From contig JAIEPU010000075.1 in NCBI GenBank assembly GCA_019748235.1, forward strand, positions 1-64,000: a stretch of 64,000 nt of DNA. Reading direction: 5' to 3'. This document shows positions 7,335 to 33,223 of the stretch, one piece after another (positions within the stretch are counted from its first letter, which is position 1; the number at the start of each line of letters is the position of its first letter). The notes beneath the pieces are model-generated. The model was not told where the DNA came from. It saw only the letters and a list, made by a program, of their open reading frames with translations, and searched no databases. Origin of the DNA: a bacterium (GTDB lineage Bacteria; Planctomycetota; Planctomycetia; Kolteriales; Kolteriaceae). Made by a program: the position numbers and the translations under genes.

Positions 7335-7859
7335 GTGGCGACGAACATCGAATGGAAAGCGAAAGCGCGCGATTTTGATCGACAGCAGAAACTCGCTAGG
7401 CAGTTGACAGGTAATTTGGCAATCGTCTTACAACAGCGGGACACATTCTTTGTGGTACCCGAGGGCCGACTGAAACTCCGGCAGCTTTCGGAGAACGAAG
7501 GTGATCTCATCTTCTATCGTCGGGAGGATATCGCGGGAGCAAAGGCTTCTCATTTTCTTGCCGCGAAAACGCGTCATCCGAATGAAGTACGACAGATATT
7601 TGCGGATCGGCTCGGCGTGATCGGAGAGGTGATTAAAACGCGTCGGCTCTACCTCGCAGGCCAGTCACGACTCCACTTCGATTCTGTCGAAGGGCTGGGA
7701 CACTTCATCGAAGTGGAGGTTGTTCTACGCGAGGGCCAGTCGCACGAAGAGGGACATGCCGTCGCGCGCGAATTGCAAGTGAAACTGGGTGTCGCGACGG
7801 AGGACCTGATCGGCGTCGCGTATCTCGACTTACTTCTTCAAGGGAACACGAGAAACTGA
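7335..7859 (+). CDS. CYTH-domain protein (class IV adenylate cyclase/triphosphatase-like)
   Basis: 174 residues from a GTG start 6 bp after the previous stop. The CYTH tunnel fold is shown by the N-terminal NIEWKAKARD, the central DTFFVVPEGRLKLRQL, LIFYRRED, IKTRRLYLAGQSRLHFDSVEGLGHFIEVEVVL (charged strands with paired Arg and Glu) and the final helix. The family binds triphosphate groups through these charged strands and includes CyaB adenylate cyclases and thiamine-triphosphatases. The first acidic pair is reduced to IEWK where many members have ExExK. The last 30 bp overlap the end of the convergent lipoprotein gene. Confidence 0.78.
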   Translation: MATNIEWKAKARDFDRQQKLARQLTGNLAIVLQQRDTFFVVPEGRLKLRQLSENEGDLIFYRREDIAGAKASHFLAAKTRHPNEVRQIFADRLGVIGEVIKTRRLYLAGQSRLHFDSVEGLGHFIEVEVVLREGQSHEEGHAVARELQVKLGVATEDLIGVAYLDLLLQGNTRN

Positions 7860-8546
7860 CGCCTCTTCCACCGGAACGACTTCCTCCGCCGGGTGACTTT
7901 CACTTTCGGATTCATCCCCCTCGGTCTTGTCCCCTTCGGTGTACTGTTCGATTTTCATGGTCGGTGGGGACTTCAACTGAATCTGATTCCACTGCGAAAG
8001 CTGCATTCCTGATCCGGTGGTATGAAGCGACAACAACTGAAGTTTCTTCGCCGAAGCAAGCTTGCCTTTCAAAGGTAACCAGAAGTTATGCACTGTGCCG
8101 AGAGTATCCGAATGTGTGACCGCTTGCTTGAACTCATCATTGTTGAATTTCCATTGATGATCGGGTTCAAGCTTTTGATCACGCGAGGTATTGTCGGCAT
8201 AGATCGAGAAGACGATTCCACCATCGGCTTCGGTCGACATGCCGTTCGCATCGAGCAATACGACTTGCACGATTAAGCCCGAAATCTGCTGACCATCCTG
8301 TGCGACGACCCGTGGCTCGGAAACGACGGCCATCTCCACCGCTCGTCCGGAAGTCGATGGAGTCATCGGCATCTTGCGGGCCAGCACCGACTCCGTCACC
8401 GCGCATCCGGTGCAGAAGAGCGCGAGCGTCAAGACTATGACCGCGAGCACGACGATTTGATCGCACCACCGCACCAAGCGCCAACGCGCTTCCGTCGCTG
8501 GAAGGCTGCGATGATCCATCAATCGCCCGAGCTGAGTGGTCATCAT
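7830..8546 (-). CDS. Lipoprotein of unknown function, candidate secretin partner
   Basis: 238 residues with a long N-region, a hydrophobic segment (about residues 30-47) and the lipobox LFCTGC, which predicts lipid attachment at Cys. The mature part has a beta-rich domain (EMAVVSEPRVVAQDGQQISG, VVLLDANG) followed by an acidic tail rich in Glu and Ser. It starts 15 bp after the secretin stop, so it is very probably the last gene of the secretion operon. T2SS secretins often need a small lipoprotein pilotin, and this position would suit one, but known pilotins are shorter and no homology is recognised. The 3' end overlaps the CYTH gene tail-to-tail. Confidence 0.75.
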   Translation of the reverse strand: MMTTQLGRLMDHRSLPATEARWRLVRWCDQIVVLAVIVLTLALFCTGCAVTESVLARKMPMTPSTSGRAVEMAVVSEPRVVAQDGQQISGLIVQVVLLDANGMSTEADGGIVFSIYADNTSRDQKLEPDHQWKFNNDEFKQAVTHSDTLGTVHNFWLPLKGKLASAKKLQLLSLHTTGSGMQLSQWNQIQLKSPPTMKIEQYTEGDKTEGDESESESHPAEEVVPVEEASVSRVPLKK

Positions 8547-8561
8547 GACCGACGCTATTCC

Positions 8562-11500
8562 TTAATCGTTTTTAGGGAGTGCCGGGGGCTTCGATCCCTT
8601 GTCGGCGGCATCCTTATCCTTCTTCCACTTTAGATTTCTCTTCTTCCAATCATTGAAGTCATCCTTACGACGTTCCGTCGGCGAACGAGCCAACTTCTCG
8701 TCCCGTTCCGCTCTCTCCTTGCGTGCCTTCTCTCGCTCCGCGACCGGATCGGTTACCTTCTTCATCACCGGAGGCTGATCGGGATTATCGGTAGCCGACA
8801 CCTCTTGCGGAATCGGGACCTTGGAAACCGTGTGCGTGAGAGGAAGCTTCTTCGGAAAATCTTCCTTCCCTTGCGGTGGCACCGGCTTCTGCGGGACCTT
8901 TGATGTCGTCTTCACCGTCGTCGGCATTTTGTTGCTGGAATTCTTCGGAATGCTGGCTCCCGAGTCGTTCGGCAGCACAAGTTCTTCCTGGGGAGACATC
9001 ATCGAGTCCGGAGGAATCGGCGTTCCCTCTTCGATCGTCTCCTGGCCGTCGACCTGACCATTGATCATGTCAGGCGATTCGCCGACGTAAACCTCCGTCG
9101 GAAGATCCAGGCTTCCGTGAAGCTTCTCGACCCCGGACAAGCACCAATTCATTCGCGCGGCTTCGACGGCCTTGATCCGCTCGGCATCCTCGCGACTCCG
9201 AACGATGTGCGGCGTCAGGATGATCATGAACTCCTTGCGGGTCTTGACGAGCGAGTCATACCGGAAGAGATGCCCCATCACCGGAATGTCACCGAGGCAG
9301 GGAACCTTACGCGTTTCTGTCTCACACGACTTTTGAATCAATCCACCGATGATCACGGTCTGACCATCCTGTGCGCTGACGGTCGTCACTGCACGCGTGA
9401 TCTGAACCGCTCGTGCGACCACACCCGGCGAGATCTGCACACTGTTCTGCGTGTCATTCACAGGAGAGAGCGCCGAGACCTCGGGGCTGACCTGCATGAT
9501 GACCGTTCCATCTGGATTGATCTTCGGGGTAACTTCGAGAATGATACCGGTCGGCGTGTACTGAATGCTTTGCAACGCACCGCCACCTTGCACGACGGTA
9601 ACGTTGGCAATTTGCGGTACGTCGGCACCGACCAAAATCGACGCCGTTTGATTGTCAAGTGTCATGATCTGCGGTCGTGACAGCACTTCGAGCCGGCGAT
9701 CCCGGGCCAAAGCGCGAATGAGGATGCTCACGCTCTCTGAACTCGCGGACAATATAAGGCCGCCGTAACCGAGAGCGGAACTGGTCCGACCGACATTAAA
9801 ATTGCTGAGCCCTTGACCGGCAACATTAGCCGCGTTCGCCGCCGTGACGTTGTTACCCAGCGGTCCCCCCGAGTTGAAATTGAACCCTGGGACAGCGCCA
9901 TCGTTGTAATAGGTCGTGCCCGACGAAGGATTGATAATGCTTCCCGCCGTGCGGTTGCTTCGATTGAACAACAGACCGTCTTGTAGACCGAGTTCGACGC
10001 CGAGCTCCAGGTTGTTATTGAGTTCCACTTGCACGAGCAGAACTTGGATGACCACTTGCGGCGGAAGCTCATCAAGCTTCTTCACCAGGTCGATGACCCG
10101 GTCATAAAATCGCGAGCTGGCGCTGATCAATAGCGAATTGCTCACTTGCTCGGGAACGATGATGACCTCTTGTTCGAGCTGTTGCTGAAGGCTCTGCCCT
10201 TCCTGGATTCCCGAGATCTGTTGTTGCTGCGTCAACAGATCCGTAAGCGAAGCCGCCACGTCGCGAGCATCAACGTTTTCGAGTCGATAGACATCTGTCT
10301 TACGTTCCTCAATATCTGAGGAATCAAGCCGTAAGATGATCGCTTCGACCACCTCGAGTTGTTCGCGGGTGCCAGAAGCCAGAATGCTGTTCGTTCGCTC
10401 ATCCACCGAGAACGATAGTTCAACGAGCGGGCTGCTCTCGGAGTCGGTCGTCGTCGTGACGGCAACTTGATTCGGGTTCGATTGAATCTGGGCGAACAGA
10501 GCGCGCAGCGTCCGGACAAGGGTTGATGCGTCACTGTTGACGAGGGCGAAGACCTTGATCTGGGCAAGCGCCTCGGGAAGAACGTCGAGCTGCTTCACGA
10601 GTGACTCGATCAGGGCCATTACATCCTTGGGCGCAGAGATGATCACCGCATTGGCCCGACGGTTTGGAGTGATCGTCACCCCTTCCATGATCCCCCCCCC
10701 GATCGTCCGCGCGGGGTCCTTTGGATCAGGAATCTGAAGGCCGGGAATACTTCGCTGAGTCGTCGGACTGGCGGTTTGACCACCCAGTTGCCCAGACTGC
10801 AATGTCGCCTGAAGCGTGGCGGAAAGCTCCGTCGCCACCGTGTACTTTAAGTAGAAGATTCTGAGATCATTCACGCGCGAGGTCTTCGAAGTATCGAGTT
10901 CTTTGATCAGCTCGGCAATCTCTTCGATGTCGGCCGGTCCGCCGGAAACGATCAGGGTATTGGAGCGGTCATCCGCCTCGATGATGATTTCGGGCGCGAG
11001 TTCTCCATCCTGACGACGGCTGGCATAGAAGGTCTCGATGGTCTGTGACAGCGTTAACGCGCGGATATGCTGCAAGCGGAAGATCTTGAATTGATTGTTT
11101 GCCGAAACTGGAAGGTCGAACCGCTTCGCCAAATCGGCAAGGTAGGCCAGATCATCCTTCGCGGCAACTAATAGAACGGCATTTGGCCGAGCGAGCGGAA
11201 TCACGGTCGATTGCGCCTGAGCCCGCGTTCCAGAACCACGAGCATCCAAAATTCGCCCGTACAGATCATTGAGCAGATCCGCCAGCGGCGCGGCCTTCGC
11301 GTGCATCAACGGATAAAGCTCGAACGTGAGCTCCCGATTCTTTGTCATCTTCTCGATCTCGGCGACGACTTCGCCCAAGATTTGAAGATCCTTCTCGGTG
11401 CCGAGGAGCAAGAGCGCCCCCACATCATCGAGAACTGAGATCTCGACATTGCCGCTGATCGGACCGACTACCGCGTCTTCACCACCAGCCGGTTGCTCGG

Positions 11501-14500
11501 CGGCGGCGTTCGTCAATTCACCTTCGACAAGATCATTCTCGTCCGCACCAACCGTTCGAACAGTCGTGGGCTCCTCGGCTGCCGGCGCACCGGCCCCGGT
11601 AACTTCCAAGCCAGTGCCCTTCGGTCTAATCGTCGTCACTTGGGTACTAGCCGGCTTTTTGCTCGAGGTTGATTCGGGCTTCAACTGCGCCAGTAACTCT
11701 TTTGCCGGCGATGGATCTTTTGCTGGATTCGCCTCCGATGTTCGGGGGGTCCGCGTTGATGGGGTTGAGCGAGTACGGGGCGTACGAGGTCGGCGGTTAG
11801 GGGTCGATCGACTGCCGCCTGATGACGAACCGCTCGTGCCTCGTTGAAGTTGGCGATCGAGAAGAACTTCGAGCGCGTTTCGAACGTCTTGAGGACTTGA
11901 ATTCTGAATCGGTAGGACGCGATAGCTTTTTTGCGTGTCCGCGGCCGCTACTTCGAGACCCTTCACGAGTTCCTCGATGTCTTTGAGGATCTCTTCCGGT
12001 GCCGCAACGATTAGACTGTTCGATCGGGGATCGACATCGACCGAGACGGCAGCCGTGCGAGCACGACCAGTCGATGAAACTCGCACTCCAGGCACGTTGA
12101 TCGGTGGCCCAGTACCGGGAAGCATGTAATCCTTAAAGACTTCTTTGATTACCAACAAAACTTCGTCCGCATCTGCTTGCTTGAGCGGGATGATGCGAGG
12201 AGCCTTGTCGGTGGGAGGAGCGATGTCGAGACTATCGATCAGTTCTCGAACGTTAACGAGATCCACCGCGCTCGCACGGACGATCAGCGCGTTCGCGCTC
12301 GGCTCCGCAACGACCCGGACTCGTTCGGGGCGGAAGCGTCGCCGCTCGCCGGAACCTCCCTGCTGCCGTTTGCCGTTGAACGCTTCGTCAATTGCCTCGG
12401 CAATTTCGGCGACGTTTCCATGTTCAATGTAAAAGACACGTGAGGCCGAGGTATCGGGGTCAAACGGTTCGGTCCAGGCTTCGGCCAACGACTGGAGTAA
12501 ATCGAGTGCGTCGATATCGCGGCTGGATGCCGTCAATCGATCATTTCCCACGATGACATTGACGGGCACATCGGGTTCACCCGGCAGAGATTCCGCTGCT
12601 TGCTCCTGCTTGGGAGTCTCCTTGGCTTGCGGCGCTGGCTCAATCGTTTTCTCTTTGGGCAGCCCAAGCGGCGACTGTCGATAGACGATGTTCAACTTAT
12701 TTCGACGGAGCAATGGCCAGGATTCCGCGATCGACTGAGCGGTCGCGATGGGATCGGCATTGTTGAGCCGAATCACGCGCTCGACCGGACGTTCTGACAA
12801 GCGAACGCCGGCGGGCTCGCCGTTAGGTGTGTCTGATTCGATCGATCCCGACCCTTCAAGCCGAGTCAACACATCGCGAATCTGTTTCATTTGCTGCTGC
12901 GTCGCACGAACCACCAGACGAGGAGGATTGAACGTCGTATCGACGCGCGGCTGATCGTTTCCACGAACCCCTTCAAAGAGCTGTCTGACGATCGAAGAGG
13001 CATCGAACGGATCGACCTTATATAGATCGAAAATTGCCACTTCGCGCTCGCGCTCTTGGGCCGGCTGATCGAGCTGCTGCACCATTTGACGAACTTCATC
13101 CATCATCCGAGGAAGCGCGCGTACGAAAATCGTTCCCGCCGTGGAGTCAGGGACGAAGATTGCCTTCTGCCTGTCGGGGAATGCGGCCGTGAGGGCACGG
13201 GCCACATCATTCGCGCTCGCATCTTGAAGTCGAACGACTTCGCCAACGAGTTGCGAATCGATCCCCTCTTGATCCGCATCACTGACGAGCGTTTCGATTT
13301 TCTTCAATGACTCGGGCGGAGCCGTCACGAGAAGCGTTCCACGGGCATCATCGTAAGTGACGCGAACCTTGGGATCAGACGAGAACATCTGTCCGATCAT
13401 CCGAGCGACGCTGGACGCCGTCGCATAGCGGAGCGAGTAGGTCTTTGTCTCAGGATCTTGAGCGTTGGATGCGGTATCGAAATCCTTGATGAAGCTCTTC
13501 ACTTGCTCCTGCTGCTGCGGAAGCGCGTTCGCGATGATGCTCTTGTCATCCGGTCCCGCGACCACCGCCGCGCCGGTGCCCGAAACCAGGTTCTGAAGAG
13601 AGGTCAACACGCTGCTCGCCCGAGTATGCTCCAGACGATACACCGTCTGCATTCGCCCCCCTTGCTGAACGTCGAGCTCGCGAACAAGGCCCGCGATCTT
13701 CTCCTGAATAGTTGGGGGAGCTTCCACCACGAGGACATTGTTGGCGGCATCTGCGGTCACGATCACCGGGTACTGCGTGGCGGGATAGAGTGCCTGCAAA
13801 GTACTGACGAGATAAGAAGCGTTGCCAAACTGCAGCTTATAAAGCTGTCGACTCGTCTCGACCGCCTGCGGCGTATCAAGCGTCGTGATGTACTTTTCGA
13901 TCCGCTCCATGCTTTCGGCCGGCGCGAAGACGACGACGGATTGCTTTTGCGGTCCAAGCGAGATTGTCGTGTTTCGTTCGGTCGCCAATGCCGTTTGGAG
14001 CAGCGTCACGAGTTGCTGAGCGGGAGTGTGCTTGGGAACGAACACTTTCTGAATTCGATTCGCATTCGGATCGATGTCCATCGAAGCGACGATCTTTGCG
14101 ATCTGCTCTTGGACGGCGGGATTCGCATAAGCCGTGATCGTGTTGTTGGTGGGGTCGTAGTAAAACTTCACTCCCGAAGTGGTCGGGGGATAAAGAAGAT
14201 AGAGAAGCTGATAGATCGATCCGACCGCGGCGTATTTGATGATGTAGGGCTTCGCGACAGATTCCCCACCTGGCTGGGGAGCCACGTCGAGCGTTTTGAT
14301 CAATCCGCGAATGCGCTCCACCACCGGCGGAGGCGCCAACACGACGAGCTGTCGACTATTGGGCGAAGCGGTGAGCGTCTTATTGGTCTCATTCGCGAGA
14401 GCGGTCGTCAACAATTGAAGCAATTGATCGGCCGTGAGGTTCGTCGCCTCGAAGGTCTCCTCGACCCAGCCTTGACGCGGACTTTGATCGAGCTCGGCGA

Positions 14501-17500
14501 CGACCTTTGCAATCTCTTCCTGGACAGCCGTCGGCGCGATCACCGTCACCGTCATCGAATAGGGATCGCTCGTCACTTCCACTCGGCGCGTCTTTGGAAA
14601 GGCGGCTTGAAGATTGAGAGCCAAGTAAGTCGGGTTCGCGAAGATCGGGCGATAGATCTTGCGGACAAGGTCCTCATCCGCCGGCGCCGCCACATCAAAA
14701 ACTTCAAAAAGACGATCGACTTCCTTGATCACATCCGACGGTGCGTTGACGATTACTTCTTCACTTCGGGGACCCATCGAAATCGTCTTATTCGTGATCG
14801 TGGCAAGCTGAGTCGTCAAAAATGTGTAAAGGTCGGTAGCACTGACGTTCTTCGGACGAAATGCTTTCGTCGCCCACTCGGCACGGGGATTCACGTCGAT
14901 CCGTTTGATCTCTTCCTTGATCTTCTCTTGAAGACCCGCCGGCGCCATGACGATCACGACTTGATTCGATGGTTCGTAATTGAAGGTAGCGCCCGTCTCC
15001 GCAGCCGGAAAAAGGGTGACGAGGGCGGAGTAAACCGATGACGCAGGAACATTGGTCACGCGGTACATTTCACGCTTGCGACCGCTGTCGGCTTCGATCG
15101 GCTGATCGAACTCCATCGCGAGGGCGACGATTCGCTCCTTCATCGTCGGAGTCGCGGCAACGATAACCGAGTTTGTCCCCACGTCGTACGTGATACGCGT
15201 TCCATCGAGTCCGCTAAAAAGCTGCGACAGGGCCGTGTACAGCGAGACGACCGGCACGTTCTTAGCCGCGATGGTGAACTGAGCGAGCGAACTGGGAACG
15301 TCTGTCTGCTTCAAAACCTCGGCGATTGCTTTCTGAACTCGTTCGGGAGCTTGAATGATCAACTGCTTGCCGCTTGGATCGGCAACAATGGTCGCTCCTG
15401 TTGCTCCCGTCGCGGGAAAGAGCGTTTGAAGCATCGAAGCCAACGTCGTTCCAGCAACATTCACGACAGGGTACGTTTTTCGGACGACCGCTGCATTCGG
15501 ATCTCGCGTACTGACGAGATCGATGAGACCTTTCACTCGTTCATGTCCGGTCTTGGTCGCGATGACGAAGAGTGCCCGACCATCCGGGCTGACCGTTACG
15601 GGGCCGACTCCCTCGTAAGAGAGCTGCGGAATAACACTCGCAATAGTGGCTGGCGACGTTTCCGCCGGCGTGTAGATTTGAAGTTGCATCTTCGCGTCGG
15701 AAGGAACGTCGATCTTCTCGATAAGAGCCTTCAGACGCTCATGAACGTCGTTCGGCGCGGTGATAATCAAAATGTTGTTGGCCGGCTCCGCGCTGATCTG
15801 AACATTGGTTCGCTCAGGCGGATAGAGCTTTTGCAGCGCGGTGACGAGCTCCGCCGCCTTTGCATATTTCAGCTTGTAAAGCTCATCGACCGGATTCGCG
15901 CCCGGTTGATCTCCCATCACGTCGATCTTAGCAAGCAGTTCCGAAATCCGCTTTTGCAGCTCGCGCGTCGCGCGGATAAGAACGCTCTTGCCGTCCGGCT
16001 GAATCTGGAATGTCGGCTTGGTCGCATCCGTGCCGAAAACCTTTGTAAGGGATTCGATCAATTGTGGTGCAGGCACGTTCTGAGCGGCATAAATCTCGAC
16101 AGACTCTGACTCAGAACCAGGCATGTCGAGTTCATTGAGCATCGCGGAGATGCGATCATGAATCTTCGTATCGGCCGCGATGACGAAGATCCGATTATTT
16201 CGCTGATCCGGAATGAACTTCACTTCGTATTTTTCGGGCGGAAAGATCGACGACAACGTCGCGATGATCTCCGCCGGCTTGGCATGCCGAAGCGAATACG
16301 TTCGCTCCGTCGTCGCTGGCTCGGTGAGTGCCGCATTGTCCAGCATGTCGAGCGTGCTTTTGACCTTCTCCATCAGAACCGGCGGGGCGCTGATGACGAT
16401 CTTGCTGTTTCCACCGGTCGGCACAAAGACGACGTTCGTCGTGGTCGGATAGAGTGCCTCGGCCAGCTTGATCAGTTCGGTCGTCTTCGCGTGCTTCGGC
16501 TGATAGATCGCTTCCTGCTTGTCACGAAGCCCCATCACTGCTGGGGGAAGATCGAGATCCTTGATGATCTTCGAGATCGATTCAATCGACTTGGCGGGGG
16601 CTCGGACGACGATCGCGTTTGTGTTTTGCTCACTTCCGAAGGAAGCGCCGGTCGTTGCCTTAGGAAAGACGGTAGTCAGGGTCGTCGCCAGCTTCTCGGC
16701 TGATGCGTGCTCGAGCTTGACGACGGTGGTCTGTTCGCTCGATGCTTCGTCGCCGATTCCACCGAGTTTTTCAATCGCCTCCTTGATCCGCGATTGAATC
16801 TCAGGAGGGGCCGATGCGAGGATTCCTTGACCATTGGGATCAACCGAAAAGCTGACGCGTGGATTCTCGCGGCTATTGAAAGCAAGCTTCAGTTGCGCCA
16901 GAATTGCCGTCGCATCACCGGGCGTGCGATAGAGCTGTTGCACCGGCGCATTCGCCTTCGCTTGATTTTCGAGCGATTCCACGAGCTTGGTAATCTGATC
17001 GACCAAGCGTCCCGGCCCCTTTACCGCGACGACATTCGCCGTCGGTTCGGCGGCCACGCTAACATTCGTTTCTTTCGGCGGGAACAGCGACGTAAGCAAT
17101 TCCCCTACACCCGCCGCGGTCGCATGGTGAAGAGTGAACGTCTTCTCAGCCGGCTGGTCATCCTTTGAAGACGGAATGTCGATTTCCGCCAGGAATTCCT
17201 TCACGCTGTTGTGCTGCGCTTCGGTCAGTACCGCGATCAGACTCTTACCGTCCGGGCCAAGCTCCATCGTTCCGCTAATTCCGAGAATGCTCTTTATCAG
17301 CGTCTGTGCGCGTTCCGGAGTCAGATGCATGAGCGGATAAGTGCGACGAACCATCGGAGCGGGCTGTTGCGGTGGCGGATTCTGTGCCGGCTTGAACGAG
17401 TTATCGAGTTCATCGATGAGGGGAAGCGACTCCGCTAACTTTGATACTTGATCGGTCAGTCGAAGAAGCTTCAGCTTCGGAACAGCTTGCAGTTCGCCAT

Positions 17501-18275
17501 ACTGCCCGAGAAGCTTCTTCACTTCAGGCTCGATGGTCGCCGGATCGGCAAATTTGAGCCGCTTGATCACCGTCACAAATTCGTTTCGACCCCGCTGCGC
17601 GAGTTGATCCTCACCGACGGTCGGAACTTGATTTAAAGGAAGCGGTTTATCGAGAGCAGCCAGCGTCAAGAAGCGATCGTTCCGAAGGACGACGAATCCC
17701 TCGGCGAGAAGAACTTCATTCAAGACGTCTAGCGCTTCGGGGATCGTATACGCTTTGGTGCTGGAATAGTCGAAAGTGCCGGGAGGCTTGAAATTGAGGA
17801 TGAGCTGAAGCTCGGCCAGTTCTGCGAATCTCGTCAGTGCGACATCCCAAGGGGTTTTGCTGAAACTGAAAACGATCTTCTTCTCGGTCGGCTTTTCTTC
17901 CTCAGGAGGCATCGGCAGTGTCGGAGCATCCCCTTCCTCGACCGGAAGAGGCTCTTGCCCCGCGACCAAAACGATGGATGAAGTAGGAAACTGAAGGTAT
18001 CGCGGCTTTGAGGCTCGCGGAGCGTGGGATTGATCGAAAGTCGGCGGAACGGCCCCCCCGTCAGAGCATTCATATTCCGCTTGGGCCGGATATTGCAACA
18101 GGCCAATCCCGTTCCCATCGACCGGCTCTCCTTCGAGAGTCATCGCTGGGATCGGTTGACGCGTGGAGGTTTCACTCTTTGTCGACTCACGCGCGATTGT
18201 GCCGAAAAAGCACACCGCCAGCCCTAAGAGTGCAGCCGCCTGCCATCGGCTTGTCGCTTCGAGGGATGAACCCAT
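8562..18275 (-). CDS. gspD: Giant type II/IV pilus-type secretin with about 30 N-domain repeats
   Basis: About 3,237 residues against 600-750 for ordinary GspD. The chosen ATG at 18275 has AAGGA upstream and a signal peptide (ALLGLAVCFFGTIA). A GTG-initiated frame upstream at 18371 lacks this support. An N0/STN-like domain lies at about residues 130-225. From about 233 to 2735 runs a tandem array of roughly 31 secretin N1-type (KH-like) domains. Each has the rhythm YxLxxAxAxxLxxxLxxLFP, then NxIIVxAP, then IxxLIxxLD. A Ser/Pro/Arg-rich insertion at about 2150-2265 splits one repeat. The secretin beta-barrel domain follows at about 2740-3025, with VQVELNNNLELGVELGLQDG, LSRPQIMTLDNQTASILVG, YTPTGIILEVTPKINPDGT, and SAQDGQTVIIGGLI to LFRYDSLVKTRKEFMIILTP. 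The tail is charged and Pro/Lys-rich. It forms the outer-membrane channel of the secretion system encoded upstream. Confidence 0.93.
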   Translation of the reverse strand: MGSSLEATSRWQAAALLGLAVCFFGTIARESTKSETSTRQPIPAMTLEGEPVDGNGIGLLQYPAQAEYECSDGGAVPPTFDQSHAPRASKPRYLQFPTSSIVLVAGQEPLPVEEGDAPTLPMPPEEEKPTEKKIVFSFSKTPWDVALTRFAELAELQLILNFKPPGTFDYSSTKAYTIPEALDVLNEVLLAEGFVVLRNDRFLTLAALDKPLPLNQVPTVGEDQLAQRGRNEFVTVIKRLKFADPATIEPEVKKLLGQYGELQAVPKLKLLRLTDQVSKLAESLPLIDELDNSFKPAQNPPPQQPAPMVRRTYPLMHLTPERAQTLIKSILGISGTMELGPDGKSLIAVLTEAQHNSVKEFLAEIDIPSSKDDQPAEKTFTLHHATAAGVGELLTSLFPPKETNVSVAAEPTANVVAVKGPGRLVDQITKLVESLENQAKANAPVQQLYRTPGDATAILAQLKLAFNSRENPRVSFSVDPNGQGILASAPPEIQSRIKEAIEKLGGIGDEASSEQTTVVKLEHASAEKLATTLTTVFPKATTGASFGSEQNTNAIVVRAPAKSIESISKIIKDLDLPPAVMGLRDKQEAIYQPKHAKTTELIKLAEALYPTTTNVVFVPTGGNSKIVISAPPVLMEKVKSTLDMLDNAALTEPATTERTYSLRHAKPAEIIATLSSIFPPEKYEVKFIPDQRNNRIFVIAADTKIHDRISAMLNELDMPGSESESVEIYAAQNVPAPQLIESLTKVFGTDATKPTFQIQPDGKSVLIRATRELQKRISELLAKIDVMGDQPGANPVDELYKLKYAKAAELVTALQKLYPPERTNVQISAEPANNILIITAPNDVHERLKALIEKIDVPSDAKMQLQIYTPAETSPATIASVIPQLSYEGVGPVTVSPDGRALFVIATKTGHERVKGLIDLVSTRDPNAAVVRKTYPVVNVAGTTLASMLQTLFPATGATGATIVADPSGKQLIIQAPERVQKAIAEVLKQTDVPSSLAQFTIAAKNVPVVSLYTALSQLFSGLDGTRITYDVGTNSVIVAATPTMKERIVALAMEFDQPIEADSGRKREMYRVTNVPASSVYSALVTLFPAAETGATFNYEPSNQVVIVMAPAGLQEKIKEEIKRIDVNPRAEWATKAFRPKNVSATDLYTFLTTQLATITNKTISMGPRSEEVIVNAPSDVIKEVDRLFEVFDVAAPADEDLVRKIYRPIFANPTYLALNLQAAFPKTRRVEVTSDPYSMTVTVIAPTAVQEEIAKVVAELDQSPRQGWVEETFEATNLTADQLLQLLTTALANETNKTLTASPNSRQLVVLAPPPVVERIRGLIKTLDVAPQPGGESVAKPYIIKYAAVGSIYQLLYLLYPPTTSGVKFYYDPTNNTITAYANPAVQEQIAKIVASMDIDPNANRIQKVFVPKHTPAQQLVTLLQTALATERNTTISLGPQKQSVVVFAPAESMERIEKYITTLDTPQAVETSRQLYKLQFGNASYLVSTLQALYPATQYPVIVTADAANNVLVVEAPPTIQEKIAGLVRELDVQQGGRMQTVYRLEHTRASSVLTSLQNLVSGTGAAVVAGPDDKSIIANALPQQQEQVKSFIKDFDTASNAQDPETKTYSLRYATASSVARMIGQMFSSDPKVRVTYDDARGTLLVTAPPESLKKIETLVSDADQEGIDSQLVGEVVRLQDASANDVARALTAAFPDRQKAIFVPDSTAGTIFVRALPRMMDEVRQMVQQLDQPAQEREREVAIFDLYKVDPFDASSIVRQLFEGVRGNDQPRVDTTFNPPRLVVRATQQQMKQIRDVLTRLEGSGSIESDTPNGEPAGVRLSERPVERVIRLNNADPIATAQSIAESWPLLRRNKLNIVYRQSPLGLPKEKTIEPAPQAKETPKQEQAAESLPGEPDVPVNVIVGNDRLTASSRDIDALDLLQSLAEAWTEPFDPDTSASRVFYIEHGNVAEIAEAIDEAFNGKRQQGGSGERRRFRPERVRVVAEPSANALIVRASAVDLVNVRELIDSLDIAPPTDKAPRIIPLKQADADEVLLVIKEVFKDYMLPGTGPPINVPGVRVSSTGRARTAAVSVDVDPRSNSLIVAAPEEILKDIEELVKGLEVAAADTQKSYRVLPIQNSSPQDVRNALEVLLDRQLQRGTSGSSSGGSRSTPNRRPRTPRTRSTPSTRTPRTSEANPAKDPSPAKELLAQLKPESTSSKKPASTQVTTIRPKGTGLEVTGAGAPAAEEPTTVRTVGADENDLVEGELTNAAAEQPAGGEDAVVGPISGNVEISVLDDVGALLLLGTEKDLQILGEVVAEIEKMTKNRELTFELYPLMHAKAAPLADLLNDLYGRILDARGSGTRAQAQSTVIPLARPNAVLLVAAKDDLAYLADLAKRFDLPVSANNQFKIFRLQHIRALTLSQTIETFYASRRQDGELAPEIIIEADDRSNTLIVSGGPADIEEIAELIKELDTSKTSRVNDLRIFYLKYTVATELSATLQATLQSGQLGGQTASPTTQRSIPGLQIPDPKDPARTIGGGIMEGVTITPNRRANAVIISAPKDVMALIESLVKQLDVLPEALAQIKVFALVNSDASTLVRTLRALFAQIQSNPNQVAVTTTTDSESSPLVELSFSVDERTNSILASGTREQLEVVEAIILRLDSSDIEERKTDVYRLENVDARDVAASLTDLLTQQQQISGIQEGQSLQQQLEQEVIIVPEQVSNSLLISASSRFYDRVIDLVKKLDELPPQVVIQVLLVQVELNNNLELGVELGLQDGLLFNRSNRTAGSIINPSSGTTYYNDGAVPGFNFNSGGPLGNNVTAANAANVAGQGLSNFNVGRTSSALGYGGLILSASSESVSILIRALARDRRLEVLSRPQIMTLDNQTASILVGADVPQIANVTVVQGGGALQSIQYTPTGIILEVTPKINPDGTVIMQVSPEVSALSPVNDTQNSVQISPGVVARAVQITRAVTTVSAQDGQTVIIGGLIQKSCETETRKVPCLGDIPVMGHLFRYDSLVKTRKEFMIILTPHIVRSREDAERIKAVEAARMNWCLSGVEKLHGSLDLPTEVYVGESPDMINGQVDGQETIEEGTPIPPDSMMSPQEELVLPNDSGASIPKNSSNKMPTTVKTTSKVPQKPVPPQGKEDFPKKLPLTHTVSKVPIPQEVSATDNPDQPPVMKKVTDPVAEREKARKERAERDEKLARSPTERRKDDFNDWKKRNLKWKKDKDAADKGSKPPALPKND

Positions 18276-18421: not shown

Positions 18422-19393
18422 CTAATTCATGTTTTGCAGGCGTCGGCGATTTCTGATTTCACGATCAAGGGCTTCTTCGGCACTGAGCAGGGTGCGTGAG
18501 CTAAAGGTGGTACCAAGTTGCCAGAGGTAGAGATTGCCATCGATATTCAGCACCATGTCCTGAAGTCCGACGTCAACAATCACTGCTCTGACACGTCCTA
18601 CCGTGAATTCCTCCCCGACACGTACAACTCGGCGAGACGCATCCTGAGCCCGATCGATGAGATCGGCCTCCACGTCCCCTCCCCCTTTACGACGAAAGAT
18701 CGTCGTTAATACCACGTGTTCCGGGTCATTCGCGTGGAGCGTCGTCGACCCAGGACTCGAGGCGTACAACATGTTTTTCTCGACGAGGACGCCATACTCA
18801 TCTCGGTTGGCGCTGACCGGTGACTCGAAGACGACTTCGCCAGGCCTCACCGGGCTGGTTTGTTCGCCGAGAGCCACTGCCTCAATCGATAGAGAAACAC
18901 GGAGTGCGGGGCCCATATCCTTGCGCGTCACTGGCGTCAAGCTCAGATTCGTGATCTGGTGAAGCCGGGGGGCCGAATAAAATGCGTAGAGGAGCTTAGT
19001 GAACGACCAGATATCGGTCTCGACGTCGACACTGAACGGGATGACACTCAGATCCCCACTCTTTAGTGGTTTACGAGGCGTCCCCGCCGTGACGTTGGGT
19101 GAAGGGATCTCGGCCAGCCGAAAAAGATCCAGCAAAAAGACCTGATACTTCTCTACGGCGAGCCGGGTGTCTCCCGGTAAACAAAGCCGTGCCAGGTCAT
19201 CCAGTTGAGAAGCCGCCACCTTGGCATCACTCAGCTTCTCAAGCGCCTGACTTGCCGAATCCTCTGCGGCCGTACGCTTCTTCTCCAGGTTCACGATCGG
19301 CTGAACGATGAATCGGGTGTAACCGAGATAGCCTCCCCCCAGTGCAACGATCACACCAACAAGTACCATGACGAGAGGTCGCTGGGTATTCAT
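18422..19393 (-). CDS. GspM/PilO-like inner-membrane assembly protein, possible GspC-like tail
   Basis: 323 residues with one N-terminal transmembrane helix (about 7-27) and a coiled coil (about 34-65). A periplasmic domain follows with FSVDVETDIWSFTKLLYAFYSAPRLHQI, the ferredoxin-like pattern of PilO/GspM proteins. Residues about 245-300 (VGEEFTVGRVRAVIVDVG, VLNIDGNLYLWQLGT) resemble the small beta homology region of GspC/PilP proteins that touches the secretin. No separate gspC is present, so this one protein may carry both roles. That is inference. Its ATG overlaps the end of the PilM/PilN-like gene (ATGA), implying translational coupling. Confidence 0.7.
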   Translation of the reverse strand: MNTQRPLVMVLVGVIVALGGGYLGYTRFIVQPIVNLEKKRTAAEDSASQALEKLSDAKVAASQLDDLARLCLPGDTRLAVEKYQVFLLDLFRLAEIPSPNVTAGTPRKPLKSGDLSVIPFSVDVETDIWSFTKLLYAFYSAPRLHQITNLSLTPVTRKDMGPALRVSLSIEAVALGEQTSPVRPGEVVFESPVSANRDEYGVLVEKNMLYASSPGSTTLHANDPEHVVLTTIFRRKGGGDVEADLIDRAQDASRRVVRVGEEFTVGRVRAVIVDVGLQDMVLNIDGNLYLWQLGTTFSSRTLLSAEEALDREIRNRRRLQNMN

Positions 19394-20955
19394 GGCCCCA
19401 CCTCTCTCATGTTGCGGTTTCCGCTTCCGGTACTTGTCTGCTCAGGAGATGGTTCGCGTGGCGACATATTCGACGGGGGGGAGGAAAGCGGACTCGATTT
19501 CTTTCCGCCAGTCCAATCATTGGGAATGCTGATCTTCGCGGTGTATCGCCAATGATATCCCGGAAACCGGGGGGCCTGTTGAATGGGTCCTGGATCCACC
19601 AGTAATCCTTGCTCCTGAGTCAGCCGATTATTGAGATCGAAAATGGTCCGCGAATCATCCGCGAATCCCTCGACCTCAATGGTCGCCTTCGAATCCTTGA
19701 CACCAGGCGTTTCTTTCAATTCCATCCGTGTTAGGAACAATTTGCTCGCCTCGGGCGTGGCATTGACCACGTCACGCAGAATATTCAACCAATTCGCATC
19801 CCGTTCGCGCCACTGCTCCAGCCATGCAAGCTGATCCGTTTTTACTTTCAGCGATTTTAGCTGTTTATCCCGATCCGCCTTTTTTGCCTGAGCGGCCTTG
19901 ATTTGCTTCTCCAGCACGCCTCCCTTGCTTGCCACATATTGCTGGCCTGCCAACAAGAGAAGTACCACTAAGCCGACACCTGCGATGAGCCCGGCTCGCC
20001 GGAAATCTGTCTTGGGCTTCGGCTTCTTCGGAACCAGGAGATTGATCCGCTGTTCGGGAGGGCGTGACGCGACCACTAACGAACCAACGACACCGGCAAA
20101 CGATCCACGATCATCATCGTCGATGTCCGAGGCCGTCACATTCTTTAGGGGATCGAAGTAAACGACTTCTGCCCCAAATTGCTCCGTGAGGGCACTCGTG
20201 ATTTCCGGATCACGTTCGGGACCCGACACCAAAACAGATTGCACTTTCAGGTCGGTGTACTGGCCCGAAAGAGAGGACTGCAACCGCTTAAGTGATTGCA
20301 GAAACGAATCATTCTCTGATCCACCAGGCTGCGTCCGCGAAACTGGTCGAGACGCACTCGTAAGAAAGCGAGTGCCGCGAAGCAGACTCAACTCTACCGA
20401 GTCCCCACTCGGAACGATGAGGAAATGCTCCTCTCCCGCATGCGTGATCATCGTGGGGATGCCGCTCATTGCCGCGCGAACATGAGCGAGAGACGCCGGC
20501 CAGAGCCCCTCGAGCTTCAGTCCCGCCGCCCGGAACATTCGCTGATACGTCGTGACGATCTCGTTGCGAACGACCGCCACGACAACTTGCGGCTCCTCGA
20601 AATCGCTTTGTGGATTGGTGTGAACGTAATCGACCGTCGTCTCCTCCAGCGGCAGCGTCAAATCGCGCATCGCCTGAAGGCGGACGGTATTGGAAATCTC
20701 AGACTCGGCGATATTGGCGACGTTCACCACCTTCAGCACGACGTTTCTTCGATCGATACACGCCACGGCGCGACGTTCTTTCAGGCCATGTTTCGTGAGT
20801 TGTGACTTAACAAAAGCGCCGACTTCCTCGGGGTTACTGGCGTCGGTCGACTCGGGAAGATCGACGGCAAAGGCGGCATCGAGCTTAACACTCTCTCCCG
20901 ATGCTTGGCCTTGCACCACGCGTATCTTCTTGCTCGTCCACTCGATCGCAAGCAT
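19390..20955 (-). CDS. GspL-like protein (PilM actin-like domain fused to PilN-like domain)
   Basis: 521 residues. The first ~290 are a PilM/GspL-type actin-like ATPase fold (MLAIEWTSKKIRVVQG, AVACIDRRNVVLKVVNV, SVLVSGPERDPEI). After a cytoplasmic linker comes a single transmembrane helix (GLIAGVGLVVLLLLAGQQYV, about 320-345), a coiled coil rich in Lys and Gln, and a PilN-like ferredoxin domain with WLNILRDVVNATPEASKLFLTRMELK. GspL corresponds to a PilM-PilN fusion, so the architecture fits a T2SS. The tail after DWTGGKKSS is Ser/Pro-rich and low in complexity. It bridges the GspE ATPase and the periplasmic assembly. It lies 153 bp after gspK. Confidence 0.8.
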   Translation of the reverse strand: MLAIEWTSKKIRVVQGQASGESVKLDAAFAVDLPESTDASNPEEVGAFVKSQLTKHGLKERRAVACIDRRNVVLKVVNVANIAESEISNTVRLQAMRDLTLPLEETTVDYVHTNPQSDFEEPQVVVAVVRNEIVTTYQRMFRAAGLKLEGLWPASLAHVRAAMSGIPTMITHAGEEHFLIVPSGDSVELSLLRGTRFLTSASRPVSRTQPGGSENDSFLQSLKRLQSSLSGQYTDLKVQSVLVSGPERDPEITSALTEQFGAEVVYFDPLKNVTASDIDDDDRGSFAGVVGSLVVASRPPEQRINLLVPKKPKPKTDFRRAGLIAGVGLVVLLLLAGQQYVASKGGVLEKQIKAAQAKKADRDKQLKSLKVKTDQLAWLEQWRERDANWLNILRDVVNATPEASKLFLTRMELKETPGVKDSKATIEVEGFADDSRTIFDLNNRLTQEQGLLVDPGPIQQAPRFPGYHWRYTAKISIPNDWTGGKKSSPLSSPPSNMSPREPSPEQTSTGSGNRNMREVGP

Positions 20956-21108: not shown

Positions 21109-22743
21109 TCACGGGCCGGAGAGTTCGGAATTCGACTCACCGAGCGCAGGCAACGCTTTTTCCTCAGTGCCGCGACCCAATTGTTCTAGCGAAATACCGG
21201 CTCCCCACCGATCGAGACGCCGCCAACTCACAATTTGAGGTGGAAGTGCTGACCGATCCATCACCACCTCGATTCGATAGGAAACCCGATTCGCCTCCGT
21301 AAAACCGACCGACTGAAACCGCACGACGGGGCTCGCGGAAGTAATCGAATTCTCAATCGACCGTAAGGAGGGCATGGACACGAACTGGTTCACCATCAAC
21401 CAAGCGATCGTCTTGAGTGGCGGTGTTGTACTCGGCGAAGTAGCCTCAGCGCTGTTCATCTCCTTCGGCATGTCGACCGGAAGACGTTCCTTGATGATCT
21501 TTTCCCGTTCCTCGTCGGTCAGCGTCGTCAAGAGTCCAAGAACCTCTTTCGGCGCGGCAGCGACATCAACTCGACCGACGCGAATGGGCGCCGGATCGGT
21601 GGTGAGTCGCTCAAAGATTTTTTCGAGTTGCTTACCGAAGTCTGCACTGGCAGAAGAGACCGGGGAAACGAGAGCGACGGGGCGATTTTCCCATACCCCG
21701 GTGACGTTCGCATCGACCAGATCAAGGACCGATCCGAATTGGAAGCCTCCGGGAGTTGGGGTCGGTGGTGGTAGCATCGACGGCATGCCAATCACACGAG
21801 CCGCGATAACAAAGCGCGCGAAGTCCACGCCGAACTCTCGTTCGAGCATGCCGTAGAGCATGCCGATCTGCGGATCGTTGAGGTAGATTCTGGGCTGACC
21901 TTTGGAATCGAGATTGTTTTCCTGATTCCAAAGGGTCAGGAGCGCAGACCAACCGCGATCGAGCTTGCCATCTTGATTGTCGAGCGGAGGGGTCTTTTCG
22001 CCGTCATCTTCATTAGGATCGAGGATGCCGTTTCGGTTGATATCTTCTCCGAACAAGATCGCGGGGGGCATGCCGCGAACTTGTAGCAATTCCTCGATCG
22101 ATTCAATGGGGCCATTTCGCGGTACCACCGCGGGCTCGGACTCTTCATAGGCGCTCCATTCCCCCCCCGATGCGCGAGGTTCGTTATCGGGATCGAGCCA
22201 ATCCAGAAGCGCGTCCACGATCTCTTTGCTGGAATTGGGGAAAAGGAGGAGCGCCGCTTCGAGTGCCGCCGGGTTCGTCTGAAACCAGTGGTTGATGTGA
22301 ATGCGAGCCGCTTCAGGTTCGGTTCCGTAACGAATTAACTTTTCGGACATTCCCATGGAGGTCGATTCATCTTGGGTGGCCGGCGACGAGAAAACGGTGA
22401 ACCGACCAGAGTCTTTCAGATCGGCGCTCCCGCCCGCCGGCGCGAGAGCATCTGAAGCGGTGAGCGGAATGGTGATCGCGCCGAACAGATCCGCGTAGTT
22501 CTCGGGATCGGGCACCTCTCGGCCACGCGCTTTCAGGATTGCCATCGCTTCGACAAGAGCAACCCCCGATTCCGCCATGTATCGGGCTTGCACTTCGTGA
22601 ACCTGCAGGATTGTCGTTTCCGTTTCGACGCTGATCCAATGCGTGAACTCGTACGCGGAATAACTGAGCATCGAGACGACGATCATCACCGCAATCAGTA
22701 CGAATCCACGACGATCACCAAGGGCACGGAGGTTTCTTTTCAC
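21109..22743 (-). CDS. gspK: GspK-like minor pseudopilin
   Basis: 544 residues with the prepilin start MKRNLRALGDRRG followed by FVLIAVMIVVSMLSY. The cleavage site is after Gly, and there is no Glu at +5, which is the known GspK peculiarity. The globular part has the GspK alpha-domain pattern (ARIHINHW, LLLFPNSSKEIVDALLDWLDPDNEPR, FVSMPSLRSIENSIT). DINRNGILDPNEDDG and DNQDGKLDRGW are EF-hand-like Asp-rich loops; known GspK binds calcium. It would sit at the pseudopilus tip with GspI and GspJ. The start overlaps the end of gspJ by 4 nt. It is longer than the usual 300-330 residues. Confidence 0.85.
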   Translation of the reverse strand: MKRNLRALGDRRGFVLIAVMIVVSMLSYSAYEFTHWISVETETTILQVHEVQARYMAESGVALVEAMAILKARGREVPDPENYADLFGAITIPLTASDALAPAGGSADLKDSGRFTVFSSPATQDESTSMGMSEKLIRYGTEPEAARIHINHWFQTNPAALEAALLLFPNSSKEIVDALLDWLDPDNEPRASGGEWSAYEESEPAVVPRNGPIESIEELLQVRGMPPAILFGEDINRNGILDPNEDDGEKTPPLDNQDGKLDRGWSALLTLWNQENNLDSKGQPRIYLNDPQIGMLYGMLEREFGVDFARFVIAARVIGMPSMLPPPTPTPGGFQFGSVLDLVDANVTGVWENRPVALVSPVSSASADFGKQLEKIFERLTTDPAPIRVGRVDVAAAPKEVLGLLTTLTDEEREKIIKERLPVDMPKEMNSAEATSPSTTPPLKTIAWLMVNQFVSMPSLRSIENSITSASPVVRFQSVGFTEANRVSYRIEVVMDRSALPPQIVSWRRLDRWGAGISLEQLGRGTEEKALPALGESNSELSGP

Positions 22744-24203
22744 GGACGTCCTCCCGGCGGTGACCCCGGTGGGAATCCCCCTCGCGGACCCGGTGGTCCC
22801 ATTGGCGGTCCATTCCCAGGGAGTGGCCCTGGGGGAGGTCCTCCACCGGGCGGTATGGGAGGTTCACCGAATTCGCCCGGGGGCCTTTCCGACTGATTCT
22901 CGTTCGACGCGACGATGGGCAGGACATGCTTCGCGCCGGGTAAGGCAACAACCAATCGATAAGGAAAAAGTGGCGGCTCCTCCTCCTCAGATCCCATCGG
23001 AGAAGAAGTCGCGGATTCCTCGATCGGCAATTCCTCCGTCGAAGCGAGCCCCTCTTGAGAAGGTAATCCGCCCGAGATACCACTCGTGGCACTCGTTGAG
23101 CGGCGTTCTTCGAAATACTTCGTGAGATATTCGGGGTCGGCGGCGCGTGGATCAAAACTAAGGGAGATCTCGACCGCCACCGGAAGTTCGTCCGGCTTGT
23201 CCCAAGCATCCTGCCACGATCGTCCGTTGTGGTAACGAAACTTGAGAGCGGTGATTCGATCAGTCACAAGGTCCGTGCTGATCTGTGGCGGCAGAGGTAT
23301 CTCATCTTTCCCCTCATCAATCGTAGGAAGCTCGAGCTCAGGAAGTCTGAATTCATCTGCCTGATCGTTCTTGGGAAGGACTTGCCCTTCGAGGTGAAAC
23401 TTTGCCTCATCCTGGGCCCAATGAGAAAAGGGAACGCGAATCTGCTGACGCAAAACGCCGCTGTAGTAAGGTTCGAACCGTTCTTCATCGCCGACGGTGG
23501 GAACCTCTAGTTCCTCCATCATTTCCCCCTCGGCGATTTTCTTTTGCTTCTCCAGGGCGTCAGGGAGCGGACGGAGCAAGTAATAAACCTGCTGTTGATC
23601 CCCCCACCGCTCCGGCCCCCGCCGTTTCTCTTGTTCCTCTCCTCCGATCGCTCCGTCCGTCGACCGACCCGATTCTTCCTCCCGATAGAGATCGAGGGGA
23701 GATTTCTGATCGCTTCCGCGACGAACCATCATGATCAACCGATTCGACGTTCCTAGGAGCCCGAATCGTTCCGCTCCATCTGGTGGCATGTCGTCCCGAC
23801 CCGCGCCTCGCGGGAGTTCGGGGAGGGGCTGCTCAAAAGGCATTTCCTCTGGAGGCGCCATCATCTCTTCGGCAGAGGGAGATCGCTCGGGCGGATTCGC
23901 GCCGCCGAGGCTTTCTCTTCGCTCCTTCTCGTGATCTCCCATGCCCAATAGAAATCGCGCGCGGCCGGGATCCTTTCCCTTCACGAGTGGAGGCATCACC
24001 GTGCGAAGTTCATCCGCGATCTGATGCAACAGGGTGCGAGCGATTTGCGATTCACTCATCCGGCGGGTGGCGACTTCGTTGTACTTTTCCTGATCCGCGA
24101 TCGCTTGCATGAGCGCGCCCATCAGGAAGAACACGATCGCCAATCCAGCGATGACTTCAATGAGCGTAAAGCCTGATCGACGGGGACGCGAGTTGGGTTT
24201 CAT
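22740..24203 (-). CDS. gspJ: GspJ-like minor pseudopilin with Gly/Pro-rich tail
   Basis: 487 residues starting with a prepilin leader RPRRSG cut before FTLIEVIAGLAIVFFLMGAL, with the canonical Glu at +5. Then SQIARTLLHQIADELRTVMPPL and, in the C-terminal half, TDLVTDRITALKFRYHNGRSWQDAWD with PVAVEISLSF, the usual GspJ beta-domain. The middle holds a long Glu/Pro-rich insertion. The last ~45 residues are a Gly/Pro-rich tail (GGGPPPGPLPGNGPPMGPPG). Ordinary GspJ is about 200 residues, so this is more than double. It overlaps both neighbours by 4 nt (ATGA). Confidence 0.82.
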   Translation of the reverse strand: MKPNSRPRRSGFTLIEVIAGLAIVFFLMGALMQAIADQEKYNEVATRRMSESQIARTLLHQIADELRTVMPPLVKGKDPGRARFLLGMGDHEKERRESLGGANPPERSPSAEEMMAPPEEMPFEQPLPELPRGAGRDDMPPDGAERFGLLGTSNRLIMMVRRGSDQKSPLDLYREEESGRSTDGAIGGEEQEKRRGPERWGDQQQVYYLLRPLPDALEKQKKIAEGEMMEELEVPTVGDEERFEPYYSGVLRQQIRVPFSHWAQDEAKFHLEGQVLPKNDQADEFRLPELELPTIDEGKDEIPLPPQISTDLVTDRITALKFRYHNGRSWQDAWDKPDELPVAVEISLSFDPRAADPEYLTKYFEERRSTSATSGISGGLPSQEGLASTEELPIEESATSSPMGSEEEEPPLFPYRLVVALPGAKHVLPIVASNENQSERPPGEFGEPPIPPGGGPPPGPLPGNGPPMGPPGPRGGFPPGSPPGGRP

Positions 24204-24724
24204 CGCGATCCTCCCGCCGGCGGTAGGCCAAGCATCTGCGGAATCGTGATGACACCGTCTGCCCGACTGGCAGGCGAGGTAGCTAGCTTCAACGACGAAC
24301 GATCAACGACCATTCGCGTCAATGACTGCTGAAAGGGACTCTCTTCTTCCGTCGTCGCGTTCGCTCCGATGTTCTCTTGGTAAGTCACCGTCACTGTGAC
24401 TTTGACGAGTCCCTCGACCGAACTCGGCTCGACCATGACGGCCGTCAACCAATGTGGATCGTCTCGATCGGGGACCGGCTCCTTTGGCATCTCGGTGCTG
24501 ATGCGAACGATTCCCGCCACGATCTCTTCCATCTTCGATTCGCATCGCAAGAGAGCGATAGTCTCTCTCTCACCAATATCGATCATCCGAAGACCGGCAT
24601 CGAGAAGTTGGCCGATCATCGCCATCGCGCCGACGAAAATGCCGATCGCAATGATCGCTTCCAGTAGCGAAAGCCCTCGCCTCTTCACTAACCTGTACGA
24701 GCGGAGAGATCGCGGTTTCTTCAT
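24200..24724 (-). CDS. gspI: GspI-like minor pseudopilin
   Basis: 174 residues with the prepilin leader LVKRRG cleaved before LSLLEAIIAIGIFVGAMAMI, with Glu at +5. The short globular part (ALLRCESKMEEIVAGIV, DPHWLTAVMVEPSSVEGLVKVTVTVTY) matches GspI in size and strand order. Its position between the H-like and J-like genes and the 4-nt overlaps at both ends support this. It would form the tip complex with GspJ and GspK. Confidence 0.78.
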   Translation of the reverse strand: MKKPRSLRSYRLVKRRGLSLLEAIIAIGIFVGAMAMIGQLLDAGLRMIDIGERETIALLRCESKMEEIVAGIVRISTEMPKEPVPDRDDPHWLTAVMVEPSSVEGLVKVTVTVTYQENIGANATTEEESPFQQSLTRMVVDRSSLKLATSPASRADGVITIPQMLGLPPAGGSR

Positions 24725-25712: not shown

Positions 25713-26183
25713 TTACTTCTTATCTTCGGAACCCGCTTCTCCACCTTCAGAAGCCCAATTGCCGATATCGTCTTCCGTCCCCTCCTGCATATCGGGACCG
25801 TTCGACCAGATATCGGGCTTCTTCTCGCCATTGTGTTCCCCAGGGAAGGCGTACTTGTATTCGTTCCCCCAAGGATCTATGGGCAATTCCTCGATGATTT
25901 GCCCCCATTTTCGAGGAGAAGGATCTCCCTCGGGCTTCTCTACGAGAGCCTTCAATCCCTGCTCGGTGCTGGGATAAGTGTTGTTCTGGGTCCGGTACAA
26001 CTTCAAATACTTGTCGAGTTCCTTCACTTGGTTCTTCGTCATGTCGATCGACGCGCCTTGCTGCGTGTCGAGGAGATTGGGAACCGTGAAGGCGGCGATC
26101 ATTGCCAGGATGACCACGACCAGCAGAATTTCAACGAGGGTAAAACCGCCACGACTCGATCGGCGACCACGGGGGGCTTTCAT
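25713..26183 (-). CDS. gspG: Major pseudopilin GspG
   Basis: 156 residues with leader RRSSRGG cleaved before FTLVEILLVVVILAMIAAFT (Glu at +5). The typical GspG body follows: VPNLLDTQQGASIDMTKNQV, YRTQNNTYPSTEQGLKALVE and PIDPWGNEYKYAFPG. The calcium-binding C-terminal stretch DIWSNGPDMQEGTEDDIGNW is the GspG hallmark. Length agrees with the family (about 140-155). An acidic Gly/Glu tail is added. It is expected to be the main subunit of the pseudopilus that pushes cargo through the secretin. Confidence 0.95.
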   Translation of the reverse strand: MKAPRGRRSSRGGFTLVEILLVVVILAMIAAFTVPNLLDTQQGASIDMTKNQVKELDKYLKLYRTQNNTYPSTEQGLKALVEKPEGDPSPRKWGQIIEELPIDPWGNEYKYAFPGEHNGEKKPDIWSNGPDMQEGTEDDIGNWASEGGEAGSEDKK

Positions 26184-33170: not shown

Positions 33171-33223
33171 TGACAGGGTGGTATGGAAGAACTTAGGAAA
33201 GCGGAGCCTCGGCAGAGAGGAAG

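Follow-up and report, generated by a model that had tools for sequence, protein, structure and literature searches.

The question raised by positions 8562 to 18275 of the window (the whole stretch of 64,000 nucleotides that was analysed) is what a secretin about five times the usual length is for, given that a census of the family arrived at 555 ± 151 residues (PMC4827864). The gene starts with an ATG at 18275 and stops at 8562, inside a stop-to-stop frame (P0001) reaching from 18371 to 8562; the limits are those of the initial annotation, and the gene runs on the minus strand. The encoded chain opens with a signal-like segment and N0, continues through 32 N-domains and closes with a secretin barrel of normal type (Table 1).

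A Pfam search found one barrel in P0001, which is complete (PF00263, E = 1.2e-44), in agreement with the normal barrel annotated at first. The NCBIfam GspD model scored 756.7 against a cut-off of 351.35, a total that is inflated by the repeats, with model positions 160–599 as the best single stretch. Identity as PilQ, the secretin of type IV pili, was not supported (TIGR02515, 258.7 bits in a likewise repeat-inflated total, below the cut-off of 284.35), as was identity as the type III secretin YscC/SctC (TIGR02516, 206.3, below 238.45). The gene closes a gspE-F-G-H-I-J-K-L-M-D cluster, all other members of which lie upstream on the same strand; since these comprise gspE, F, G, H, I, J and K together with the PilM/GspL and PilO/GspM genes, the locus was assigned to a type II secretion system (T2SS). 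Judged by homology and operon position, the protein is the outer-membrane channel GspD of this system. No gspC was recognised in the cluster; a GspC-like HR domain was suspected from the sequence of the PilO-like protein, and searches neither confirmed it nor gave an identity for the extra beta domain at the C-terminus of that protein. The lipoprotein-like gene downstream of gspD recurs beside gspD in the same-family genome G001 and in many relatives among Planctomycetia and Phycisphaerae (phmmer), and its product is a possible pilotin or assembly factor.

Table 1. Features of the giant secretin gene and of its T2SS cluster (window coordinates; residues refer to P0001)
Feature	Position	Strand	Evidence
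Giant T2SS secretin gene gspD, ~3,237 aa (residues 33-3269 + stop)	8562..18275	-	Single open frame; Pfam/NCBIfam secretin matches; same-length ortholog in G001
N-terminal hydrophobic signal-like segment (limits approximate)	18183..18275	-	Read from sequence
N0 domain, residues ~162-237	17661..17888	-	Profile A4 against GspD N0-N1 structures, E = 1.5e-15; TIGR02517 36-157, E = 3.9e-6
N1 domain, residues 265-322	17406..17579	-	N0-N1 profile
22 tandem N-domains, spacing ~68 residues, residues 343-1839, two-repeat (A-B) periodicity	12855..17345	-	Repeat HMM
N-domain interrupted by loop insertion, residues ~1865-1965	12477..12779	-	Weak HMM match and alignment to array proteins
Two N-domains, residues 1978-2141	11949..12440	-	Repeat HMM
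N-domain split by Ser/Pro/Arg-rich insert, domain residues 2151-2340	11352..11921	-	PF03958 positions 2-65 across insert, E = 1.7e-4
Ser/Pro/Arg-rich insert, residues ~2176-2290	11502..11846	-	Array-protein C-terminal profile stops at residue 2174; second-T2SS split genes break here
Five C-terminal N-domains beside barrel, residues 2351-2767	10071..11321	-	Orthologous to Planctomycetia secretin domains, last four in order
Secretin barrel domain, residues 2887-3058	9198..9713	-	PF00263
gspE ATPase	27761..29491	-	TIGR02533, 1e-178, score just below cut-off
gspF	26444..27700	-	TIGR02120, 3.4e-106, score just below cut-off
gspG, major pseudopilin	25713..26183	-	TIGR01710, 5.5e-40, above cut-off
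gspH	24721..25563	-	TIGR01708, 2.1e-9
gspI-like minor pseudopilin	24200..24724	-	Position, prepilin-like N-terminus; phmmer matches at equivalent place in relatives
gspJ	22740..24203	-	TIGR01711, 1.1e-7
gspK	21109..22743	-	NF037980, 2.5e-17
PilM/GspL-like platform protein	19390..20955	-	TIGR01175, 4.2e-18; PF11104, 1.3e-10
PilO/GspM-like inner-membrane protein, extra C-terminal beta domain	18422..19393	-	AF2 pLDDT 75.6; Foldseek to PilO 3jc8/2rjz
Small putative lipoprotein (lipobox-like) directly downstream of gspD	7830..8546	-	phmmer; lipobox by eye

The number of N-domains was determined by two routes. Pfam reported 25 Secretin_N stretches (E = 3.9e-254); with a custom HMM derived from the repeats themselves, 28 domains were recovered at E < 0.01, so that the count is far above ten on either scale; four further domains are weak or interrupted (residues 265-322, which is N1; 343-398, E = 0.09; ~1865-1965; 2151-2340). 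The total is thus 32 N-domains plus N0, or 33 potential rings, where about 31 repeats had been counted before; the great excess over a normal secretin stands, with the exact number corrected. The N0-like start was substantiated by a profile of 12 sequences (A4), which matches the GspD N0-N1 crystal structure 5mp2 across both domains (E = 1.5e-15). The 68-residue repeats alternate with a period of two; in permutation tests p was 6.5e-4 for the window protein and 1e-4 for its G001 ortholog.

This ortholog, a secretin frame of 3,269 residues, has a barrel 74% identical to that of the window protein, and the repeats of the two proteins match 1:1 in order, except for one that scores higher against a neighbour. 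Identity between orthologous repeats is ~37–81%, versus a mean of ~21–29% between repeats of one protein, by lag; because repeats within the protein are far more divergent than orthologous ones, the array must be old, as had been proposed, and a recent tandem expansion was ruled out on the same two observations. The window genome is a draft of 326 contigs, so fused or duplicated contigs had to be considered as the source of the array; such an assembly or annotation artefact is nevertheless vanishingly improbable and was rejected, given the independent ortholog of the same length with its repeats in the same order and comparable giants in the single-contig genomes G403, G149 and G497 and in chromosome record CP070772.

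For structural comparison, profiles were prepared from non-overlapping segments of four repeats. When a profile built from four adjacent repeats (78 rows) was compared with 5wln, a solved GspD structure of 15 chains, one unbroken alignment covered residues 111-335 (E = 6e-35), equivalent to three N-domains in a row; the repeats were therefore classed as GspD-type N-domains. An AlphaFold2 model of four repeats as a single chain (residues 1235-1503) reached a pLDDT of 93.1 and a pTM of 0.62, with a confident beta-alpha-beta-beta-alpha fold in each repeat; structure prediction of such a piece had been proposed as a check. GspD chains were the best PDB matches of this model in Foldseek (TM 0.34, rmsd ~22 Å), and the arrangement of its domains did not superpose on GspD protomers. 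On this modelling the N-domain fold is secure and the packing between domains is insecure.

The Ser/Pro/Arg-rich insertion had been suggested to be a hinge. It lies inside one N-domain: the two halves flanking it together match PF03958 end to end (positions 2-65, E = 1.7e-4), and a profile of the C-termini of barrel-less array proteins from other Planctomycetia aligns to residues 1908-2174 (E = 8.7e-40), directly before the insert. A hinge between domains was rejected on these grounds. In a second T2SS of G001, a gene break falls at the equivalent point, with five whole N-domains left before the barrel. As the array C-termini end at residue 2174 and this break coincides, the insert was taken to mark the junction of two modules; the one-gene form may have arisen by fusion, or the two-gene form by fission.

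Most Planctomycetia distribute the stack over two genes. Their ordinary secretin has 1,200–1,500 residues, usually without a full N0-N1 start, and the genomes encoding it also code for a further long protein, in which N0 is accompanied by many N-domains and the barrel is absent. Such array proteins measured 3,265 aa with 33 N-domains in genome G058 (L159), 2,701 aa with 25 N-domains in the single-contig genome G028 (L158), and 1,249 aa at locus L161. Of 59 relatives, 42 had both a match to the N0-N1 profile and a strong GspD barrel and 17 had neither; none had just one of the two. The array gene adjoins or sits within a T2SS cluster (L161, L162/L163, L065, L070, L152): the order is array-E-F-G-H-I-J-K-L-M-D in G032, the gene lies upstream of gspE in G050, and in L065 it is placed between the gspD-lipoprotein pair and gspE. 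In most loci examined the array protein stops halfway through an N-domain, once beta1-alpha1 is complete, and a tail rich in Ser/Gly/Arg often follows. A split is also present in G440 of the Phycisphaerae (L151), which has an N0-array frame of 2,809 aa (7340-15766) and a secretin of 1,735 aa (1975-7179), both on the minus strand; the break lies inside an N-domain, the secretin part has its own signal-like start, and the split looks independent. Separate start regions, recurrent gene order and single-contig genomes indicate that the two-gene arrangement is real biology. Splitting in relatives had earlier been named as a possible sign of an assembly error here; splits do occur in most Planctomycetia, and the error is for all practical purposes refuted by the 3,269-residue frame of G001. 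The window genome also contains a second T2SS cluster (L152, G000:C252:1-16000) with a split secretin, in which an N0-array gene of 1,049 aa is followed by the beginning of a secretin gene, truncated where the contig ends, and preceded by gspM.

When 392 Planctomycetota genomes were surveyed for proteins of similar length, 18 other genomes had secretin frames of 3,109–5,073 residues, among them the single-contig genomes G403, G149 and G497, and 36–49 N-domains were counted in the five of these giants that were analysed for number. Giants therefore recur, as had been looked for, and the window gene is neither the longest nor unique. From named genomes, a scan with retrieval of the full genes yielded 4,170–4,808 residues and 41–51 N-domains in the Phycisphaerae group (CP070772 included), and 3,766–4,038 residues and 42–43 N-domains in the Verrucomicrobia group, where giants seem to be limited to one clade (with a strict cut-off, 1 of the 195 genomes sampled). 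When checked with the window proteins, most giants of relatives were found to adjoin T2SS genes; for a few, the retrieved stretch contained no match. In three Phycisphaerae-group loci (L103, L119, L150) a stop or a change of frame interrupts the giant array, which may be a genuine split or a sequencing error.

With regard to origin, most N-terminal repeats of the window protein find their best matches among themselves and not in proteins from outside the family, whereas its C-terminal domains correspond to domains of ordinary secretins from Planctomycetia, with the order kept across the last four. The long part thus grew within this lineage, between N1 and a C-terminal array that is ancestral. 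Arrays of Phycisphaerae and Verrucomicrobia could be mapped onto each other in order only for the last ~nine domains. In a barrel tree, the root of which is arbitrary, the window/G001 pair groups with Planctomycetia, apart from the phycisphaeral and verrucomicrobial giants; this separation is suggestive of two or more independent expansions. That all long arrays go back to one origin was supported neither by the repeat matching nor by the tree with its arbitrary root.

What the array does was considered against known lengths. PulD with N0-N3 is 20 nm long (PMC6882859) and Thermus thermophilus PilQ, with the six rings N0-N5, 350 Å (PMC5745081), which also makes the three or four N-domains initially ascribed to known secretins too low a figure. 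With ~10 nm subtracted for the barrel region, a ring pitch of 2.5–4.2 nm was calculated from the two lengths, and hence ~90–150 nm and ~5 MDa for the window complex, and more in Phycisphaerae. We hold it to be somewhat better than an even prospect that a stacked-ring tube of ~90–150 nm links the inner-membrane platform with the outer membrane across a wide periplasm. In such an assembly the barrels of ~15 copies would come together in the outer membrane, and every N-domain in turn would add one ring to a stack of ~33; N0 would dock on the PilM/PilO-like inner-membrane platform, with the stack crossing an unusually wide periplasm, and a GspE-driven pseudopilus would push folded enzymes out. Two modules would be involved, an inner N0-array tube and an outer tube of N-domains and barrel, meeting at an N-domain of which the array protein contributes the first half as its end; they form one chain via the Ser/Pro/Arg linker in the window gene and separate proteins in most relatives.

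The tube is favoured by the domain content, the 5wln alignment, the AlphaFold2 fold, the T2SS operons and the co-occurrence of N0-N1 with a barrel, and further by the array genes at T2SS clusters, the C-termini at residue 2174, the PulD length precedent and the planctomycete periplasm, which is enlarged and variable, with surface pits connected to the cell membrane (PMC5394234). The two-repeat period would fit a unit of ring pairs, since the rings of Thermus PilQ form tight pairs (N2/N3 and N0/N1; PMC5745081), and in Thermus the number of rings has been tied to a wide periplasm of ~70 nm (PMC4463427). Against it speak the single-chain pTM of 0.62 and the lack of superposition on GspD protomers, the very different ring numbers between species, the position of crateriform sites in Planctopirus where the membranes come close together (PMC5394234), the pseudopilus of at least 100 nm that would be required to traverse the whole tube, the failure to recognise a GspC and the searches with the PilO-like beta domain, which returned no identity.

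According to the main rival, only the ~five barrel-side N-domains form rings and the rest are beads on a string, holding N0 to the platform across a changing periplasm. The modelled inter-domain geometry, unlike that of stacked GspD protomers, would suit this, as would the often disordered N0/N1 region of PulD with its weak link to the platform (PMC6882859), the existence of the array as a separate protein and the varying width of the planctomycete periplasm (PMC5394234). A passive string, however, would tolerate loss and shuffling of repeats, whereas the spacing is uniform and tight (~68 residues), the 1:1 order is kept between genera and the A-B period is significant; the repeats also align with ring-forming GspD N-domains. 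We regard this explanation as unlikely, yet to be taken seriously. The array could alternatively serve mainly as a periplasmic surface for binding or scaffolding (peptidoglycan, substrates, assembly factors), its length providing avidity and not a conduit. Mutual divergence of the repeats (~21–29% mean identity by lag) and loop insertions in some of them agree with such a role, but no binding module other than N-domains was found in the array, and every complete single-chain giant examined keeps N0 at its far end, an arrangement that argues for spanning from end to end; we rate it quite improbable.

If the stacked tube is extended to all these lineages, Planctomycetota and one verrucomicrobial clade would build a modular trans-periplasmic T2SS tube of 100–200 nm with ~20–50 rings, from one chain or from two proteins joined via a split N-domain, which could be the assembly under crateriform pits that tethers the outer to the cell membrane. 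This wider claim is rather unlikely as a whole, and the link of giant secretins to surface pits is speculation.

Among known systems, T2SS GspD/PulD (5wln, 6hcg; PMC6882859) shares N0, the N-domain fold, the barrel (TIGR02517) and the operon partners with the window protein, which differs in having 32 N-domains plus N0 instead of N0 plus N1-N3, a ~5x greater length and a linker-interrupted N-domain; by homology, this number is a length variant and not a defining difference. Thermus thermophilus PilQ (PMC5745081, PMC4463427) likewise has extra stacked N-rings in tight pairs, thought to span the ~70 nm periplasm, but with six rings in 757 residues it serves type IV pili and DNA uptake, compared with ~33 potential rings in a T2SS. 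Deinococcus DR_0774 (8co1) contains several N-domains and matched the repeat profile at 3.7e-27; it has 740 residues and is annotated as a type IV piliation protein, whereas the window secretin is far longer and belongs to a T2SS. The barrel-less array proteins resemble the window protein in N0, the many N-domains and a C-terminus that aligns to residue 2174, and differ in being encoded by their own gene and lacking the barrel. In the literature searched on planctomycete, verrucomicrobial and phycisphaeral secretins, with incomplete coverage of subscription journals and preprints, no report of giant or two-gene secretins and no description of the barrel-less N0-array proteins of Planctomycetia was found.

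Textbook secretins have four to six periplasmic rings. Arrays of 32–51 N-domains and versions made of two proteins point to a ring stack that is modular and can be extended, and they offer a handle on how planctomycetes export enzymes over an enlarged, variable periplasm and on the composition of surface pits. Since related families differ several-fold in array length, the relation of ring number to periplasm width is directly testable.

Some further features were noted in the same genome. Two overlapping frames of the window (1258-4386 and 3902-6427, minus strand) each encode one of two successive pieces of a PVC-type heme-binding domain (TIGR02604 positions 1-159 and 188-366); because the G001 counterpart is one frame, at least 1,676 aa long, beside a ureidoglycolate-lyase gene (L038 14973-20000), the window gene looks frameshifted. 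Another frame with a secretin domain (L039, G000:C282:20000-34674, positions 10096-14673), at least 1,526 aa long and cut by the contig end, has a repetitive N-terminal half and a Gly/Met-rich stretch and is not a T2SS N-domain array. On the plus strand of the window, three consecutive TPR-rich proteins of 705–742 aa are encoded at 31053-37613, and two nearby genes at 38029-40363 gave weak matches to the THxN family of PEP-CTERM proteins.
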